From IMG/VR virus record IMGVR_UViG_3300043466_001905, positions 1 to 64,000 of that record: a stretch of 64,000 bases of DNA, one strand, 5' to 3'. Positions 45,411-62,686 of this stretch are shown in pieces (within the stretch, counting starts at the first letter, position 1; each line of letters begins with the position of its first letter). The stretch comes from a virus. The position numbers and the translations under genes were made by a program. Below the pieces are notes generated by a model. The model did no database searches. It saw only the letters and a program-made list of their open reading frames with translations, and had not been told where the DNA came from.

Positions 45411-46901
45411 ATGAAAAAGATTATTAAATTAACTGAATCTGATTTAATTAAATATATCAAACAAACCATTAATGAACAGGATTCCGAATATTATGAAATA
45501 TCTGCTCAGGAATATCTTAATCTTTTAAAAGCATCTGGTTATAATGCCAAAGGTTTAACAAGATTAAAAAAGTTTGGAGGTAAACCACTTAAAGTTATTG
45601 GTAATTTAAATTTACGTGCGGAACCAATTAAAGATTTGGGTAAATTATATGTTGATGGAAGTGTTTTATTAACAAATTCTAAAATACAAACAGTTGATGG
45701 GTTAACGGCAACTGGCAGAGTTGAAATTCTTGGAACACCATATCAAACTAAATTGGATAGAATAAAGAGACAAAAAGAAATTGATGATGCCCAAGAAAGA
45801 AGGGATAATGATGAATGGAATTTAAATAATCCTGATATAGATTCTGAAGGTCAAAAGGCAAATGCTATTTTTATGTTTTCATTAGATAGAGGTGAATTGG
45901 TTGGACTTGATGATAACGAAAGAGAAAGAGCGAATGACATCCAAAGTGAAATCAAAAGATTAGAAAATGAAAGACAAAATTCAGAAAACGAAGATGATGA
46001 AATAAGTGACAAAATTGATGAACTCCAAGATGAATGGGATGAAATTATGTCTGGTAATAAAGTTGATATATATGATTTAATCCCAATGGGTTATGATCAG
46101 TACGAAATGTCCGCGTTTAAGTCAATTGATGGAGGTTATGAATATGCTGCAGGAACAATTGATGAGGCGGATAATTCACTTAGGGATTATGCTGAATCAT
46201 TACTGGATGAAATGGGGTATCAAGGGTTTAATAGGTATTTTGTTGAGAAACACATAGATGGTGATGAAGTTGCCGACTCTTTTGAAGATTCAATTAGAGA
46301 AGACATATATGAAAATCCTGAAGGTTGGGACATAAGAAGATTACCAAGTAAACAACAATATGAGGAAATATGGTTACTAGATATGGAAAAATGGGGTTAT
46401 AAAAACTTCAAAATAAGATACCCAATCAAATACCCATCAAGAGAAGGTAAAAATAAAGTCTTTGATTTTATGGATGATGAAGACAACTCATTCCAAATGA
46501 GGTACGAAGGAAATAAATGGGTGTTATATAAAGAAGGTGTTATGGTTCAACCAGAACAACTATATGACGATGAAGATACTGAAGAACAAAAACAAGAAAG
46601 AGAGGAAAGAATAAGTGAAATTGAATATGAAAGAGAGACAATATTAGAAGAACCTGATGGTGATTTGGATGAAGATTCGGTTGAAGAAGCGGTTGAAGAT
46701 AGGAAATATGACATTAGTCAAGATCCTGTAAGATGGTTAAATGATTATGGTATTGATGATTATTCACCATTTATTAATAGGAGAGACTTTTTAGATGATT
46801 TGGTTGATGATTTAAATTACGGTAGATTAGGTGGTTATGACGATGAGTATGAAGAAATAGAAATCAACGGAACAAGATATATTGTTGTGAGAATCAATTA
46901 A
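45411..46901 (+). CDS. Leader-bearing acidic protein, 496 aa
   Basis: Begins MKKIIKLTESDLIKYIKQTI, a clear example of the short N-terminal leader (basic start, LTES, amphipathic helix, NEQ) seen in several proteins of this phage. After it come a small domain (residues about 25-125) with beta-like repeats (GKPLKVIGNLNLRAEPIKDL, LYVDGSVLLTNSKIQTVDGL), a coiled coil and a long acidic region rich in Asp/Glu. The first domain resembles an LRR-like or beta-solenoid turn. Function unknown; the leader may target the protein into the capsid. Confidence 0.65.
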   Translation: MKKIIKLTESDLIKYIKQTINEQDSEYYEISAQEYLNLLKASGYNAKGLTRLKKFGGKPLKVIGNLNLRAEPIKDLGKLYVDGSVLLTNSKIQTVDGLTATGRVEILGTPYQTKLDRIKRQKEIDDAQERRDNDEWNLNNPDIDSEGQKANAIFMFSLDRGELVGLDDNERERANDIQSEIKRLENERQNSENEDDEISDKIDELQDEWDEIMSGNKVDIYDLIPMGYDQYEMSAFKSIDGGYEYAAGTIDEADNSLRDYAESLLDEMGYQGFNRYFVEKHIDGDEVADSFEDSIREDIYENPEGWDIRRLPSKQQYEEIWLLDMEKWGYKNFKIRYPIKYPSREGKNKVFDFMDDEDNSFQMRYEGNKWVLYKEGVMVQPEQLYDDEDTEEQKQEREERISEIEYERETILEEPDGDLDEDSVEEAVEDRKYDISQDPVRWLNDYGIDDYSPFINRRDFLDDLVDDLNYGRLGGYDDEYEEIEINGTRYIVVRIN

Positions 46902-52424: not shown

Positions 52425-52727
52425 ATGAAAATAATCATCACAGAAACCCAAGAAAATAAGATACGAACATTCCAACGAAGAATTAGTATTGCTGATGATG
52501 TTATTTCTAATTTAAATCCCAAAGATGTTTGTAGAATTTGGAATAATAATGAAAAAGACGCCTTATATTTTGCTGATGATGTCATTGTTGGTATAGTTTG
52601 GGAAATTAATCATACACTTGGTGTTGAATCGTATCATAACAAAGATTTATATAAATTTTTTGAGGATATTGGATACTATGATAAACTAAAAGAATTTTTC
52701 CACAAATCATTTGAATCATGCGAATAA
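52425..52727 (+). CDS. ITE-leader protein, 100 aa
   Basis: Starts MKIIITETQENKIRTFQRRI; a longer frame reaching back to 52320 would cross the terminator, so the ATG next to the TATTTATA motif is chosen. The N-terminal MKIIITE(T/N/S)Q segment recurs in at least four neighbours. The body is an acidic helical domain (DDVISNLNPKDVCRIWNNNE) unlike the neighbours' bodies. It overlaps the next gene by 10 bases. Function unknown. Confidence 0.65.
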   Translation: MKIIITETQENKIRTFQRRISIADDVISNLNPKDVCRIWNNNEKDALYFADDVIVGIVWEINHTLGVESYHNKDLYKFFEDIGYYDKLKEFFHKSFESCE

Positions 52728-53053
52728 TCATAACTGAAAATCAAAATAAAATCTTATGGTTACGCAGGAGATTGGATGATCCTGAAATTAATAATTTATT
52801 AAGGGATATTGTTATTGAGGGATTTGATTATATTGATGCTTGTAATTATAAAACTTATCCTGGATATGAACTTGAGGTGGTAAACGGATCTATACCAACA
52901 TTTATTAATTCATATATTGAACTTTACGGTGAAGTTTCTGTTGAGGATTCCGAACTTGAGAAATTTGTGGGTAAAATAATTGTCAGTAAATATCGTCCCA
53001 TTATTTTGCGAGAGTACCGAGATCGTTATTGCGATGATGAAACGGATTTTTAG
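52718..53053 (+). CDS. ITE-leader protein, 111 aa
   Basis: Starts MRIIITENQNKILWLRRRLD, then NLLRDIVIEGFDYIDACNYK and a charged C-terminus. It shares only the leader and overall size with its neighbours; the body (VEDSELEKFVGKIIVSKYRP) may have a distant relation to that of the following protein. It starts 10 bases inside the preceding gene. Function unknown. Confidence 0.6.
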   Translation: MRIIITENQNKILWLRRRLDDPEINNLLRDIVIEGFDYIDACNYKTYPGYELEVVNGSIPTFINSYIELYGEVSVEDSELEKFVGKIIVSKYRPIILREYRDRYCDDETDF

Positions 53054-53054
53054 C

Positions 53055-53062
53055 TATTTATA
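53055..53062 (+). promoter_or_regulatory. TATTTATA motif, putative phage promoter
   Basis: Exact TATTTATA ending 4 nt before ATG 53067. Confidence 0.55.
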
Positions 53063-53066
53063 AGAT

Positions 53067-53399
53067 ATGAAAATCATTATAACAGAAAATCAAAACTTTA
53101 TTCTTAGACGACTTACTCGTTTCATTGAAATTGTTGAAGAACAAATTGAGGGGTATGAATTAAATGATGACAATCCTTGGTGGTGTTCCGCATTTTATAA
53201 TCCTGATATTTTTGTTGATGTTCTAATTGAAAGATGTATTAATATTTTTATTGAAGAGAATTGGGATTTCTTTCACGATGATACAGATAAAGGCGGTGCC
53301 AATATGGATATTTCTATTTTAAATAAAATTGTTGAGGAGAACTATGGTAATTACGTTAGAAACTTATACGTTCGTAAATGTGGTAGAAGTAGATTTTAA
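53067..53399 (+). CDS. ITE-leader protein, 110 aa
   Basis: Starts MKIIITENQNFILRRLTRFI; body ends ENYGNYVRNLYVRKCGRSRF and contains WWCSAFYNPDIFVDVLIERC. Same leader and TATTTATA spacing as 52425 and 54254. Function unknown; probably part of a tandemly expanded family that varies behind a fixed N-terminus. Confidence 0.6.
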   Translation: MKIIITENQNFILRRLTRFIEIVEEQIEGYELNDDNPWWCSAFYNPDIFVDVLIERCINIFIEENWDFFHDDTDKGGANMDISILNKIVEENYGNYVRNLYVRKCGRSRF

Positions 53400-53414
53400 A
53401 GATATTAATCAAAG

Positions 53415-53786
53415 ATGAAAAACTTAATTAGAAAAATATTAAAGGAGGAAACATTCAGTAGGGATTGGATGGATGCCGAATACGCAGATGAATATCCGAA
53501 GTATAAAAAATTGTTTTTTTCTGCGATTAAAATACAATTCGCAGCGTCAGGACGAACAGAAACGTCAATATTGATAGGAGACTCAAACAGAAAAATTATA
53601 ATTGATTATAGAAAACCTAGTAAAACACTTTATTACGATTATGGTTGGGCAGAAAGTGTTGAAGCTTTACTACCTTGGAATATTTATAATAGACACTTTA
53701 CATACGCATTAGCAGAATACTTCAATAATCTTTTTCCTGATGCGACAATAAAAAATGTCAGATGGGCAAACATTTCTTATAATTGA
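53415..53786 (+). CDS. Leader-like hypothetical protein, 123 aa
   Basis: Begins MKNLIRKILKEETFSRDWMD, a different leader type (NLIRKILKEE) that also appears as a short amphipathic helix in other phage proteins here. The body (FAASGRTETSILIGDSNRKI, SVEALLPWNIYNRHFTYALA) is folded-looking, with many Tyr and Trp. No family recognised; lies within the leader cluster. Confidence 0.6.
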   Translation: MKNLIRKILKEETFSRDWMDAEYADEYPKYKKLFFSAIKIQFAASGRTETSILIGDSNRKIIIDYRKPSKTLYYDYGWAESVEALLPWNIYNRHFTYALAEYFNNLFPDATIKNVRWANISYN

Positions 53787-53787
53787 T

Positions 53788-54219
53788 ATGAAATTCCTAA
53801 TCACAGAAAACCAACAATCAAATCTTAAAACCAAGTTACAGAATATGGTTAAGGACATTGGGTGGAAAAAAACATCCATTGCGGTTGGTGGGAGTGAAAA
53901 TTTAGCAAAACTCGGATTCAATAATAATGAAACAGAGTTTCTTGATATGTTCAGGGGTTTAAAAGTTGTTCAGAGTAGAGAATACCCTAAATGGACTTTA
54001 TTTCGTTATAAAAAAGGAAATAATATAATTGTTTATGATAAAAAAGATGATTTTGTCTTTATAAGTAATCAAATTTGGGCATTTTTAAATGATGGGTTTG
54101 GGTTAAAATATGACGAAATAATAAATATTATGGATAAATGGTTAGATGAAAATTATAATTTAAAGGGGGTTAAAACAATCAAAAATGGGCAGGGATCGTT
54201 TCTTCTTTGGACTATTTGA
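53788..54219 (+). CDS. ITE-leader protein, 143 aa
   Basis: Start set at ATG 53788 (MKFLITENQQSNLKTKLQNM), one base after the preceding stop; a frame starting at 53755 is rejected. Leader LITENQ followed by an alpha/beta body (FRGLKVVQSREYPKWTLFRY, NIIVYDKKDDFVFISNQIWA). No TATTTATA motif directly upstream, so it may be co-transcribed with the preceding gene. Function unknown. Confidence 0.65.
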   Translation: MKFLITENQQSNLKTKLQNMVKDIGWKKTSIAVGGSENLAKLGFNNNETEFLDMFRGLKVVQSREYPKWTLFRYKKGNNIIVYDKKDDFVFISNQIWAFLNDGFGLKYDEIINIMDKWLDENYNLKGVKTIKNGQGSFLLWTI

Positions 54220-54241
54220 TACTTACAATTAAAGTTAAAAC

Positions 54242-54249
54242 TATTTATA
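54242..54249 (+). promoter_or_regulatory. TATTTATA motif, putative phage promoter
   Basis: Exact TATTTATA ending 4 nt before ATG 54254. Confidence 0.55.
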
Positions 54250-54253
54250 TGAT

Positions 54254-55108
54254 ATGAAAATAATAATTACAGAATCACAATTAAATCTACTAAAGAAGTC
54301 AACTCTAACTGAAAGTGAAGAGTTGAATCAGTATGATTTAACCGCAGATGAAATGCGTCAAATTGAAGAACAATCGGAACAAGAAACTAAGGAAGATTAC
54401 GAAACCACAAAAAAAGAAATTGAGGAACTAAGACAAAGAGTTAAAATGTATAATGACTTTGATTGGAGTAAAATAGATACTGAAAATAAAAGGGCGATTA
54501 AAAACCAAATAGTTCAGCCAGAAATAAATAGATTAAAAAATCTTGAGGAATGGATATCTGGTTTCAATTTTGAAGAACAAAAGAAAAGAAGAATGGATTG
54601 GCATTTACATAGTGCAGGAGGAATTGGTTTTGCAATAAGATATAAAAGATACCAAGATGAAGCATTAAATAGAAATCTAACTAAAGAAGACATAATTGAC
54701 TTATTTGTAACAGCACTTGAGGGAGGTTCAAATTACTGGTATCATATGGATTTACCTGAAGACATTAAATCATTTGGTGACTCAACGTCAGAAGCGGTCG
54801 GAGAATATATTTTACAAGGTGGTCATATAGAATTCTATGATGTTGAAGAATATGATAGGGTATTAAGAGATAAAGAAAGAGGTGATTATAACATTCAAGG
54901 AGATGTAGAAGATGAAAAATCTTTTAATGAGGATTTAGAAGAGACAAAACTTGGTTATGTTGATATGGATAAAATATTGGAAGCAATAACAATAATAAAA
55001 AAAGAATACCCTGAAGTTTGGGAAAACATTTTGTTGGAACAGGCAGATGCTGGAGACGCAGATGTTTTTCTTCAAATCTGTGTAATGGGTGAAGTAGTTT
55101 ACGGATAA
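54254..55108 (+). CDS. ITE-leader protein with conserved C-terminal domain, 284 aa
   Basis: Leader MKIIITESQLNLLKKSTLTE, then a coiled coil (residues about 30-90), then a domain from about 130 (NLTKEDIIDLFVTALEGGSN, YWYHMD) to the end (EQADAGDADVFLQICVMGEV, VYG). The two ends of this domain, an EGGxNYW motif and DAxxADxxxQxxxxGExVYG, occur as a small free-standing protein in other phages and bacteria. Here it is fused behind the leader and a coiled coil. Function of the domain is unknown. Shares its last base with the next gene (TAATG). Confidence 0.65.
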   Translation: MKIIITESQLNLLKKSTLTESEELNQYDLTADEMRQIEEQSEQETKEDYETTKKEIEELRQRVKMYNDFDWSKIDTENKRAIKNQIVQPEINRLKNLEEWISGFNFEEQKKRRMDWHLHSAGGIGFAIRYKRYQDEALNRNLTKEDIIDLFVTALEGGSNYWYHMDLPEDIKSFGDSTSEAVGEYILQGGHIEFYDVEEYDRVLRDKERGDYNIQGDVEDEKSFNEDLEETKLGYVDMDKILEAITIIKKEYPEVWENILLEQADAGDADVFLQICVMGEVVYG

Positions 55109-55701
55109 TGGATTTTATTTTTAACATAAAGCAAATTGGGTTGATTACCGAAAATTCCGAACGAACAGAAAAATTAATTAAGTCGTTACATAAAAAAGGA
55201 TATTCATTTCAGCACATAAAAAATATGACTGGACTACCAAAAGAAGTTGTTTTGTCCTCATTGTTTGACGAAGAAATAACAACTAAAGATAATACATCAG
55301 AGATTTGGGAAATGTTATATAATCACCTTTGGAACACTAAGTTAATAAAAAAAGAAAAAACTTATAATGATGGATCATATGTTAAGCTATATTATGATCA
55401 TTTTTCTGGAACTTTAGAATATGAATATAAAACAAAAAATGGTAATAAAATTTATGGTTATGCAACACTTTTTTGGGATGGAGAACCAGTGTTGCCTGTA
55501 AACGGTCAAGAATTTACATTTGAAAATGGAGAATTTTCATATTATGATATCTATGCTGGTGATTTTTATAATGATATTAAAAAATATATACCGAAAATCA
55601 TTACAATAAGAGGAATGGTGGAATTATTCAATCAAGGATATTTTAAGGTATTGAAAAATGTTTTGGATAAAATGGAGATTCAATATTTAGATGAATTATA
55701 A
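55108..55701 (+). CDS. Leader-like hypothetical protein, 197 aa
   Basis: Starts MDFIFNIKQIGLITENSERT; LITEN lies at residues 12-16 rather than 3-8, so this may be a degenerate leader or one preceded by extra residues. A helix-turn-helix-like segment KGYSFQHIKNMTGLPKEVVL follows (about 30-50), then a Tyr-rich body (YYDHFSGTLEYEYKTKNGNK). Coupled by TAATG to the preceding gene; ends at a bidirectional terminator. Function unknown. Confidence 0.6.
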   Translation: MDFIFNIKQIGLITENSERTEKLIKSLHKKGYSFQHIKNMTGLPKEVVLSSLFDEEITTKDNTSEIWEMLYNHLWNTKLIKKEKTYNDGSYVKLYYDHFSGTLEYEYKTKNGNKIYGYATLFWDGEPVLPVNGQEFTFENGEFSYYDIYAGDFYNDIKKYIPKIITIRGMVELFNQGYFKVLKNVLDKMEIQYLDEL

Positions 55702-56728: not shown

Positions 56729-57649
56729 ATGATACATTCTGTGTGGAAACCTATTTTTCTAAAGGGTAAAGTTAATCAATATGAGTTAGTGGAAAAAGAA
56801 TCTATAATTGATATGAGAGGTAAAACAAATTATAAAGTTATATGGACGTGTGATAATGATAAATGTAATTACCCCAAACAAATACACTCAATAAGTGCTT
56901 ATCACCTAAAAAAAGAAAAGATGTGTTATAAAACACAAATATGTAGACCATGTCAGTGCACTGGTGAAGGTAATGGCAGATATGGTGATAAAAGAACTTG
57001 GGATGAACTACACACCCCACAAAAAGTTAAAGAACTCAAAAAATTTATGTCGGATAAATGGAAAGGGGATATGAATCCGTCTAAAATGGATGATGTAAAA
57101 ATTAAAAAAAAACAACCTATAATTAATGAAGAATTTTTAAAAGAAATTGTTGAAAAAAGAAACTTTCGGTTAATTTCCGTTATTGATTTATGTGGTAAAA
57201 AAAGTAAAATAAAAGTTGAATGTAATAGTGGACACATAATGGAAAAGAGATATGATAATTTTATTAGGAAAGATAAAAAATTTATTTGTGATAGATGTTA
57301 TTATGAATCAATATCGTTAAATCTTACAGATGAAGAGTTACTTAAAATTGAGAATTATAAAAGACAAGTAAGAGCTTTAACCGCTAAAAATTATAAACTA
57401 CACAAAGATGTTATAAATCCTAAAAATTTAAAAATAGGTGTAAAAGATTACCATTTGGATCATAGGTATAGTGTGTATGAAGGTTATCGTAATAATGTTA
57501 ATATTAATATAATTAGTGCGAAAGAGAATTTAGAGGTCATACCATATAATGAAAATTTATCAAAACAGCAAAGATGTTCTATAACATTAGATGAATTAAT
57601 TCAACAAACAAAGTATTTATATAAAAACAATAATTATGACGACCAGTAA
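56729..57649 (+). CDS. HNH-type homing endonuclease, 306 aa
   Basis: Free-standing nuclease. N-terminal zinc pairs (CDNDKCNYP, CRPCQCTG; residues about 47-75) and a middle DNA-binding region lead to a C-terminal HNH-like core: YHLDHRYSVYEGYRNNVNIN (His-Asp-His, about 240-259), SAKENLEVIPYNENLSKQQR (Asn and the final catalytic helix). Cys pairs also appear at ECNSGH and CDRCYYE. Its stop codon (57647-57649) lies inside the first codons of the DHH phosphoesterase gene, 92 bases before that gene's interrupting TGA. A homing endonuclease that abuts a disrupted gene is a strong hint of a mobile cassette. Confidence 0.78.
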   Translation: MIHSVWKPIFLKGKVNQYELVEKESIIDMRGKTNYKVIWTCDNDKCNYPKQIHSISAYHLKKEKMCYKTQICRPCQCTGEGNGRYGDKRTWDELHTPQKVKELKKFMSDKWKGDMNPSKMDDVKIKKKQPIINEEFLKEIVEKRNFRLISVIDLCGKKSKIKVECNSGHIMEKRYDNFIRKDKKFICDRCYYESISLNLTDEELLKIENYKRQVRALTAKNYKLHKDVINPKNLKIGVKDYHLDHRYSVYEGYRNNVNINIISAKENLEVIPYNENLSKQQRCSITLDELIQQTKYLYKNNNYDDQ

Positions 57650-59063
57650 AAACAAGAACGTCCTGGTTGAAAGTGGATTAAGAGATATCACATCTCTCGC
57701 TAGAAGATACCCGAAAGCGAAAATCTACTTTCACCAGGACCTTTGACTTGACGGGGTTACAACCGCGTTAGCAATGAAACATTATTTAGAGAATAATGGA
57801 ATTAAAGTTGTTGATGCTGAAATAATTCAGTATGGGGATAAAGAATTTGCGGTGAAAAAATTAGATGCTCAAGGAGATGTTATGCCGGTGTTAGTTGATT
57901 TTGCGCACGGAAAACCTATGTTTGTTATTCACACGGATCACCACGACACACAAGCAGGTGTTGAACAAGGAACCGCAACAAGTTTTAGATCGTCAAGATC
58001 CAATGTTGAAACGATATCCCAAATCATATCACCAAAAGAAATATTTTCACCCGAAGACGTTCAATTAATATCAACGGTGGATTCTGCTGACTACGCAAGA
58101 TTTGATATCACACCAGAACAAGTGATGAACTATCTTTTTAAAATGGATAAAGATAAATCATTACAAAGAAATAAAATGTTGATGGGGTTGGTAACTAATA
58201 AATTATTGTTGGCATATAAAAACAAACCAGGTTTCTTGGATTCAATAGTACTGAATGCGAACCCATCTTTAATTAGTATATTAAATAATATCAGAGCTCA
58301 AATTGCGGAAAAAGGATATGCTGATGTTGAAAACCTTGAAAGAAATAAGGAGATGTATGTTCAGTCAATGAAGAGTCATCCAAATGTTAGAACGGAAGGT
58401 AATATCATCGTTCAGTATGGTGGTGGTTCTATGATGAAACCAGGTTCTTATGACAGATATACTCCATTTAGAAATAATCCTGATGCTGACTTTTTGGTTA
58501 TTGCTTGGCCGTTGGGATTGGTTCAGGCTTCTTGTAATCCATTTAAGAAAGAGCGAGCACTTAAAGGTGTAAACTTGGGTGAAATAAAAGACGAAGTATT
58601 GGGTAAATGGGAATCACAATTGAAAGATAGACAAATCCCATTATCAACAATTAAGTGGGTTTCTGAATCAGGAAAAGAGTTTGGGTCTGAGTCAGTGGGG
58701 TTTACATTCAAAGACTTTAAAGCAATTTATGGTGGTTCTAAAAGTGAAAGTGGAAAATCATTAATGAATGATATTGAGGTTGCAATGGAAATACCTTTTT
58801 CAGATTTAACAAATGAAGAAATGAATATGTTAGATAATATCACCGTAAGTGCTTGGGACGTAATCATTTCTAATAGTGGTGGACATAAATGTATAACTAA
58901 CATTTCTGGACTTAATTATATGGGTAGATCTAAACGTCCACCAGCAGGTAAATACAAATATCAAAAGGATAGTGATGACGCTCCATATGTACAGTTTACA
59001 AAAATGATACAGAAAGAATTTGTAAGATTGTTGAAGGAAAAAATTGACGAAGAAAAGGGTTAG
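57636..59063 (+). CDS. DHH phosphoesterase interrupted by in-frame TGA; candidate 6-nt bypass, 473 aa if joined
   Basis: The frame opens at 57636 (MTTSKNKNVLVESGLRDITS), reads 36 codons to KIYFHQDL and meets TGA at 57744-57746. It resumes in the same frame as LDGVTTALAMKHYLENN. The conserved motif of DHH enzymes should be HQDLDG. Reading CTT (57741), skipping TGACTT and resuming at GAC 57750 gives HQDLDGVTTA exactly. Downstream are the DHH triad HTDHHDTQ (about residue 98 of the joined protein), VDSADYARF and a DHHA1-like GGHKCITN near the C-terminus. If translation instead restarts at ATG 57774, a 429-aa product lacks the first metal motif. Programmed bypass, stop readthrough or a recent mutation remain possible. 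Confidence 0.7.
57660..57740 (+). other. RNA structure inside the DHH coding sequence
   Basis: GTCCTGGT-T-GAAAGT (57660-57674) pairs with ACTTTCACCAGGAC (57727-57740), 14 bp with one bulged T. Inside are AGAGAT/ATCTCT and CGCT/AGCG hairpins. The right arm ends on the base before the CTT take-off codon. Confidence 0.7.
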
Positions 59064-61951: not shown

Positions 61952-62686
61952 ATGGGAAAAAGATTTATAATCACGGAAGAAGAGAAAAGTAATATCTTGG
62001 GTTTATATGGTAGAAATGAAACTCTTTTAAATGAGGAGGATGGAACGTATACTTTGAAAAATAAAACAAACTTAATAAGAACAAGTTTAGGGGGTGCTGG
62101 TACTTTACCATATCGTATAACGTTAAAACAAGGTGCGATTATAAGAAAAAGTGGGTCAAATATTATTATACCTAAAGAATCAATATATTATTACGACGAA
62201 GATACTAAAAAAAGTGATGGAAAATTTTACGTAGATGGTAAGTTGGCGTGTAAGGGATCTGAATCAATAAATTTTGGTGAAAATGCTTCATATAAATACG
62301 AAACAAATATTCCGGGCACATATGATACTTTTGCCGAAACATTACGAAATAAGTTGTGTAAAAAATCAGTAAGTAAAACACCCGAAACAACAAAATCACC
62401 GGTAAAAATAAAGTTACCCGATTTAACAGAAAAAAACTTTTGTAATTTATCGGGCGATAAAGTTTGGGAATATGCAAAACTTGATGACGGGACTTGGTAC
62501 ACAAGAAAAAAAGGACAAGAAGAATGGACAAAATTGGAATTACCTAAATTCCAAAAGGCTGTTGATCTTTTAAATAAAGATGGAAAATGTGGAAGTTTGG
62601 AAACAGTTGTAATAGGTACCTTACCTCTTAAACCTATAGAACCTTTACCTATTAATACCCCAACCGATATAATCAAACCTGAATAA
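61952..62686 (+). CDS. ITE-leader protein, 244 aa
   Basis: Begins MGKRFIITEEEKSNILGLYG, a variant of the leader (IITEEE, ILGLYG) typical of proteins in this phage group. A folded domain follows (LGGAGTLPYRITLKQGAIIR, DGKFYVDGKLACKGSESINF), then a Pro/Thr linker, a second small domain (KVWEYAKLDDGTWYTRKKGQ) and a Pro-rich tail. It is flanked by near-identical terminators. Function unknown. Confidence 0.65.
   Translation: MGKRFIITEEEKSNILGLYGRNETLLNEEDGTYTLKNKTNLIRTSLGGAGTLPYRITLKQGAIIRKSGSNIIIPKESIYYYDEDTKKSDGKFYVDGKLACKGSESINFGENASYKYETNIPGTYDTFAETLRNKLCKKSVSKTPETTKSPVKIKLPDLTEKNFCNLSGDKVWEYAKLDDGTWYTRKKGQEEWTKLELPKFQKAVDLLNKDGKCGSLETVVIGTLPLKPIEPLPINTPTDIIKPE

Follow-up and report, generated by a model that had tools for sequence, protein, structure and literature searches.

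A probable mobile cassette of an HNH-type homing endonuclease gene and a translational bypass element in a phage DHH-family phosphoesterase gene

A 64,000-nt stretch of virus DNA (hereafter the window, a part of the 65.5-kb IMG/VR record IMGVR_UViG_3300043466_001905) contains what we consider a mobile cassette, comprising an HNH-type homing endonuclease gene and a translational bypass element that lies within the 5' part of the target gene, which encodes a DHH-family phosphoesterase. We assign this reading a probability of roughly 0.8. It is supported by the architecture of the locus, by conservation and covariation of the element, by purifying selection beyond the interruption, by repeated gain or loss, by footprints of co-conversion and by the association with the HNH gene, all of which were analyzed in the window and in related contigs and loci (designated L plus a number). 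Taken together, these sequences strongly suggest that, in this widespread phage group, ribosomes hop over a stop codon.

All parts of the cassette are encoded on the + strand of the window. The HNH/His-Me-finger-type gene of the putative homing endonuclease (56729..57649, 306 aa) overlaps by 14 nt with the DHH gene, whose ATG at 57636 lies within the 3' end of the former. The first ORF of the interrupted gene (57636..57746) comprises 36 codons, MTTSKNKNVLVESGLRDITSLARRYPKAKIYFHQDL, the last of which is the take-off codon CTT (Leu, 57741..57743), directly followed by an in-frame TGA (57744..57746). The triplet after the stop is the landing codon, again CTT (Leu, 57747..57749), and coding resumes with GAC at 57750, from where the open continuation DGVTTALAMKHYLE... 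extends to 59063, constituting the main part of the phosphoesterase gene (57750..59063, 437 codons and a stop). The interruption amounts to 6 nt (CTT-TGA-CTT-GAC) and is placed between L and D of the motif HQD-L-DG, which is invariant among the aligned uninterrupted relatives (D30, L31, D32 and G33 in the alignment) and which would be restored by landing on the second CTT. An earlier, sequence-only reading of the window had located the end of the HNH gene inside the first codons of the DHH gene, about 90 bases before the interruption, and the stop between identical codons in the most conserved motif; both statements agree with our measurements, the HNH stop codon being found 95 nt before the TGA.

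The same interruption is present in two further records of the same phage (L001, L002) and in the diverged L003 and L004 (downstream dS about 1.1), which allows a sequencing error to be rejected. A pseudogene limited to a single population is rejected as well, in view of about 50 contigs with the interruption and of the retention of the element at dS above 1. As to the phosphoesterase itself, intact relatives match PF01368 (DHH family) with E from 6e-5 to 8e-4, under the Pfam cut-off, and possess an HTDHHD motif; a search of PDB sequences with the DHH profile returned no meaningful match, and the AlphaFold model of the protein is poor (pLDDT 56). In L095, L097, L108, L120 and L128 the DHH protein has C-terminal extensions of roughly 80-330 aa, fused in frame, which by eye include a domain that looks like SET-type or lysozyme-type. 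The uninterrupted DHH proteins begin with MKKLITESG, and many ORFs in the window (52718-55701, 61952-62686 and 45411-46901) exhibit an N-terminal leader of the MKIIITE(N/S)Q or MKKLITES type. The I/L-x-E pattern of this leader presumably resembles the T4-type prohead protease site, so that the encoded products may be internal head proteins that become packaged. A search of the genome_contigs collection of host genomes did not recover the DHH gene; judging from low GC and from the missing Shine-Dalgarno signal, our guess is that the hosts of these phages belong to Bacteroidota.

When the interrupted motif was searched for with free spacing and with no stop codon required, about 40 more contigs were found, and further scans brought the total to about 50 public phage contigs with the interruption, which represent 25 distinct 5' elements. 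Of 230 DHH loci, the plain motif is present in 152 and HMDLDG in one, and the remaining 77 are interrupted (many of these being overlapping records), with not a single insert devoid of a stop codon. The interrupted pattern consists of CTN, a stop, 0, 2, 3 or 5 nt, and another CTN, corresponding to hops of 6, 8, 9 or 11 nt. A pattern that accepted a stop or a Trp codon after any Leu codon revealed no further type, and a general pattern with any stop after HQDL retrieved the same set plus chance matches only. The stop is located immediately 3' of the take-off codon in 25/25 distinct elements (TGA in 19, TAG in 4 and TAA in 2), and CTN is invariably used both for take-off (CTT 21, CTG 2, CTC 2) and for landing (CTT 19, CTG 5, CTA 1), the third base sometimes differing between the two codons of one element. 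At the same Leu of the motif, 65 of 69 uninterrupted genes have TTA or TTG. Three uninterrupted genes (L228, L231 and L238) have the codons CAC CAG GAC CTT, typical of the interrupted ones, and no stem, a state that is perhaps due to precise loss of the insert or to recombination.

In every element, re-pairing of the CUN-bound peptidyl-tRNA on the next CUN restores HQDLDG. Alternatively, the stop codon might be read through, by a suppressor tRNA or in an altered code, with a residue added to the product (HQDL-X-L-DG). Such decoding is compatible with elements of the hop-6 and hop-9 type, in which the frame is open through the stop, so that the frame alone does not discriminate between the two possibilities. 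In the hop-8 and hop-11 elements, however, the two ORFs are out of frame and in-frame readthrough ends after 1-10 codons; as 8 and 11 are not multiples of three, readthrough cannot explain these inserts, and with this spacing a CUN-to-CUN hop is the sole way to join the frames. Moreover, TGA, TAG and TAA are all used at the site and all are ordinary gene terminators in these phages, hence one suppressor or one altered codon would be insufficient. The product of readthrough would also gain 2-3 residues between two invariant aspartates of the motif. Finally, readthrough needs no CTN landing codon, yet one is present in 25/25 elements, in genes whose other Leu codons are 24% CTN and 76% TTA/TTG. 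We regard readthrough as very improbable.

A programmed +1 frameshift at CUU-UGA-C, of the kind known from RF2 (prfB), deserves mention because the CUUUGAC heptamer and the AGGA just upstream resemble the RF2 frameshift site. In every element, however, a stop is met in the +1 frame after 3-23 codons, and this frame structure rejects the shift as a route to the full-length enzyme; besides, relatives have TAG and TAA in place of TGA. Gene starts of these phages lack the Shine-Dalgarno signal (2/57 vs 2/56 in the control), which makes a Shine-Dalgarno role for the AGGA before the take-off codon unlikely as well, and we find +1 frameshifting hardly credible.

The structured RNA noticed in the sequence-only reading is evident from folding energies: the segment 57636-57790 folds with -45.7 kcal/mol, against a mean of -27.4 for shuffled sequences (z -5.7; 0/200 shuffles). 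Within it, nucleotides 57660-57740 form a 19-bp stem (8 bp and 11 bp, separated by one bulged U) that encloses two small hairpins. The 5' arm of the outer stem (57660..57679) contains the basal 8 bp, GUCCUGGU, at 57660-57667 and the upper 11 bp at 57669-57679, and the 3' arm (57722..57740) ends at the base directly before the take-off codon, with the stop outside the stem. The inner hairpins (57682-57696 and 57697-57720) are weakly conserved, with 68% and 83% of cells paired. Folding z values range from -4.1 to -6.0 in four interrupted genes, compared to +0.6 to -1.9 in four uninterrupted ones, which are about as stable as shuffled sequences or slightly more so. In helix 1, 97.4% of cells are paired in 22 distinct sequences and covariation exceeds that of all 500 shuffles, although it rests on two pairs in which both bases have changed (GC replaced by AU, in 10 sequences for one pair and in 3 for the other), since much of the helix is invariant. 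Comparison with uninterrupted genes provides the stronger evidence for the stem: the basal-stem pairs that set interrupted genes apart form in 92-100% of these, vs 0-29% of 69 uninterrupted genes, largely at synonymous sites. Between the window and L003, synonymous differences affect 2/27 conserved codons in the 5' element vs 137/382 downstream (p 0.0014). The conserved 5' stem is therefore a feature of the interrupted genes, and it probably stimulates hopping. The stems of hop-9 and hop-11 elements can be extended by 2-4 bp into the take-off codon, those of hop-6 elements by 0-1 bp and those of hop-8 elements by 0 bp, which hints at a rule connecting stem extension with hop length, albeit one that the hop-8 elements do not fit. 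A known RNA family or a group I intron was considered and rejected, as Rfam gave only chance-level matches.

The stop codon could also signify a gene that is broken or split into an N-terminal peptide and a truncated DHH protein translated from a downstream ATG. Downstream ATGs are indeed present, and the L096 group (L096 and four further contigs) looks decayed: the 5' arm of the stem is lost and there is a second nonsense codon, which indicates that some copies are non-functional. This second codon, seen in L096, L106, L118 and L132, is a TAA that replaces an invariant Ser, with 72% conserved sequence beyond it (L130 is too short). On the other hand, a restart would drop the motif-I aspartates, and the element, with its 5' stem, the stop directly after take-off and a CTN codon for landing, has been kept over dS above 1. 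Purifying selection past the hop was detected in all tested pairs, including those with hop-8 and hop-11 (dN/dS 0.04-0.13), and it continues along the whole gene, and we consider this explanation highly unlikely. The N-terminal peptide encoded by the interrupted genes is much like that of the uninterrupted relatives.

The HNH protein contains several Cys pairs (probable zinc sites) and a set of invariant residues, H242-x-D244-H245...S248...E251G252...N267...N276..K279. Curated models (Pfam, NCBIfam) gave no HNH match, hence the assignment rests on the H-x-D-H...N...K motif and on weak PHROG matches; one member weakly matches endonuclease VII (E 0.026). The AlphaFold model is poor (pLDDT 69, pTM 0.47), and a PDB fold search with this poor prediction matched nothing.

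Members of this HNH subfamily adjoin the DHH gene in 12/26 interrupted and 0/45 uninterrupted lineages (Fisher 7.5e-7, uncorrected for relatedness). A search with the HNH profile only identified 21 loci, and in 20/20 of those with downstream sequence the HNH gene adjoins an interrupted DHH gene. In the other 14 of the 26 interrupted lineages there is no adjoining HNH gene, and several of them have no clear remnant. Remnants of the HNH 3' end are found just upstream of the DHH ATG at least in L003 and L108 and, in a weaker form, in L099, L097 and the group of L095/L103/L115/L116/L127/L128; the one in L108 is longer than that in L003, and the weaker ones are short C-terminal traces only. In L003 and L004 the bypass element is nearly unchanged and the HNH gene is reduced to a short 3' remnant. 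Remnants beside inserts are the pattern expected of endonuclease loss after homing. The sequence-only reading had predicted that relatives without the HNH gene would have an uninterrupted motif, and this is true of 42 of the 45 uninterrupted lineages (the other three have only a distant HNH cousin). It had further named inserts without the endonuclease as an observation against the cassette; these do occur, in the 14 interrupted lineages that have no HNH gene, although the remnants fit the cycle of gain and decay of a homing gene. In L003 (6343-7800), and also in L004, both of them relatives that lost the HNH gene, the interrupted DHH gene is directly followed by a 485-aa DUF7487 gene that looks like another homing-endonuclease type.

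The bypass may be real and the HNH gene merely an unrelated neighbour or an ordinary free-standing endonuclease, with the interruption serving its own (e.g. regulatory) purpose. This would agree with the missing HNH gene at 14/26 interrupted lineages and with the distant HNH branch, whose members adjoin uninterrupted DHH genes in L050, L059, L255, L258 and L259, implying that an endonuclease can reside there without the bypass. It is at variance with the restriction of the close subfamily to interrupted genes, with the persistence of its remnants at other interrupted loci, and with filled/empty pairs, where the HNH gene and the insert occur in one conversion tract. We judge it unlikely, and prefer the cassette. 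In L050, the uninterrupted DHH gene next to the distant HNH gene has an altered motif, HQDSDGVFS, possibly reflecting immunity acquired by sequence change and not by insertion. Distant HNH relatives in L276, L278, L281 and L285 overlap the starts of other uninterrupted genes (tail- or head-completion-like), from which it follows that adjacency to a start codon is common for this type of nuclease.

Mobility is indicated by the DHH tree, built from the part of the protein beyond residue 40. The distribution of the interrupted state requires at least 8 changes (gains or losses), of which 6 are forced by well-supported branches, and the window and L003 are nested among the uninterrupted L005, L007 and L011. 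Near-isogenic pairs of filled and empty alleles display the boundaries of transfer. L126 (filled) and L173 (empty) have the upstream gene in common up to TATAATATG; the HNH gene of L126 starts at the same ATG as the shared TATAATATG, and the left junction is sharp exactly there. The identity of their DHH genes is 59% in the 5' 84 nt and rises to 90-100% far downstream. In the pair of L146 (filled) and L166 (empty), it is 55% in the 5' 84 nt, then 73, 75, 88, 90 and up to 100%. Such a 5'-to-3' gradient indicates a footprint of gene conversion begun near the motif. HNH and DHH identities between lineages are uncorrelated (rho 0.13). The suggestion of a mobile bypass cassette, originally made from the window alone, is supported by the 20/20 HNH loci found blindly next to interrupted DHH genes, by repeated gain or loss, and by co-conversion.

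The most divergent case is L263, a 189-kb contig in which an HNH gene of the distant branch is followed by ...FHIDL, TGA, an 11-nt hop and LDGVTSAIAM... The DHH part of L263 is 46-48% identical to the others, and its stem has a different sequence and, like that of gene 60 in phage T4, includes both the take-off codon and the stop. The element must either be very old or have originated twice, with L263 perhaps holding a second element that was constructed independently at this codon.

For cleavage, protection, the hop and its efficiency, we infer the following scheme. The endonuclease would cut uninterrupted DHH copies at or near the invariant HQD-L-DG codons, and repair from a cassette-bearing genome would copy in the HNH gene, a replacement DHH 5' end and an insert of 6-11 nt starting with a stop codon. 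The insert would destroy the recognition site, whereby the carrier would be protected, and the enzyme would stay functional because the hop would yield the normal HQDLDG motif. The ribosome, holding peptidyl-tRNA-Leu on CUN in its P site and the stop in its A site, would lose this pairing and re-establish it at the next CUN, giving the joined peptide IYFHQDLDGVTT with no inserted residues. The stem 5' of the take-off codon would re-form as the mRNA leaves the ribosome, and completion of its basal part could pull the mRNA out, or the ribosome forward, in the manner of the 'motor' role proposed for the 5' stem-loop of T4 gene 60 (PMC5009743). A more far-reaching version, to which we give even odds, is that of a widespread and still evolving natural family of 6-11 nt 'stop hops' in which a homing endonuclease repeatedly spreads the bypass element as an immunity device, re-zipping of the stem powers the hop and perhaps sets its length, the hosts may not use Shine-Dalgarno signals, and L263 is perhaps of independent origin.

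Efficient programmed bypassing in a phage has T4 gene 60 as its textbook example. To this the elements described here add a natural series of dozens of variants, which use four hop lengths and three different stops, differ in their stems, comprise filled as well as empty alleles, and occur with or without the endonuclease. The series makes it possible to test what minimal signals a ribosome requires to jump over a stop codon, and whether bypass inserts have evolved to serve homing endonucleases as immunity devices. A further implication is that metagenome genes with a short in-frame stop are not always broken.

The closest known system is that of mobA and gene 60 in T4, where an endonuclease gene likewise lies directly upstream of the interrupted gene (PMC3014915, PMC5009743). 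Gene 60, for which the kinetics of bypassing are available (PMC11194080), has in common with the DHH genes a stop right after take-off, matching take-off and landing codons, a 5' stem-loop just upstream, an interruption missing from most relatives, and an insert proposed to protect from the endonuclease. The differences are substantial: the gap is 50 nt in gene 60 vs 6-11 nt here, the codons are Gly GGA vs Leu CUN, the split gene encodes a topoisomerase vs a DHH phosphoesterase, and one phage is known vs many lineages. Gene 60 further depends on an essential nascent peptide and on a take-off stem-loop located in the gap, whereas the stem described here is wholly or mostly upstream, entering the gap only in L263 and, slightly, the take-off codon in hop-9 and hop-11 elements. 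Inclusion of the stop codon in the take-off stem-loop, as in T4, is found in the divergent L263 only, and not in the window. Bypassing in gene 60 has been described as unique to T4, and mobA as apparently defective (PMC3014915).

Short hops are known from synthetic E. coli 'stop hops' (Weiss et al. 1987, cited in PMC5009743), in which, as far as summarized in that review, a stop is flanked by matched codons, 9 nt specify a single amino acid and the frame at the product level is unchanged, as here; those were constructs, whereas the present elements occur naturally, are conserved and are accompanied by a mobile endonuclease and a stem that is probably stimulatory. The byp elements of Magnusiomyces capitatus mitochondria are also short bypassed inserts thought to be mobile, but they are reported to be independent of mRNA context and are present in many genes read by mitochondrial ribosomes, and the sections of the review devoted to them describe no adjacent endonuclease in such a layout (PMC5009743). 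A bypass candidate in the terminase gene of Streptomyces phage Hau3 is similar in being a phage gene with a short gap, but it is centred on the codon UUA, and the passage on it in the same source describes no endonuclease cassette (PMC5009743). The 2016 review states that in-frame stop hops had not been known from nature (PMC5009743). Judged against the open-access papers searched, the cassette described here would be a second case of the mobA-gene 60 type and the first family of short 'stop hops' to be found in nature.
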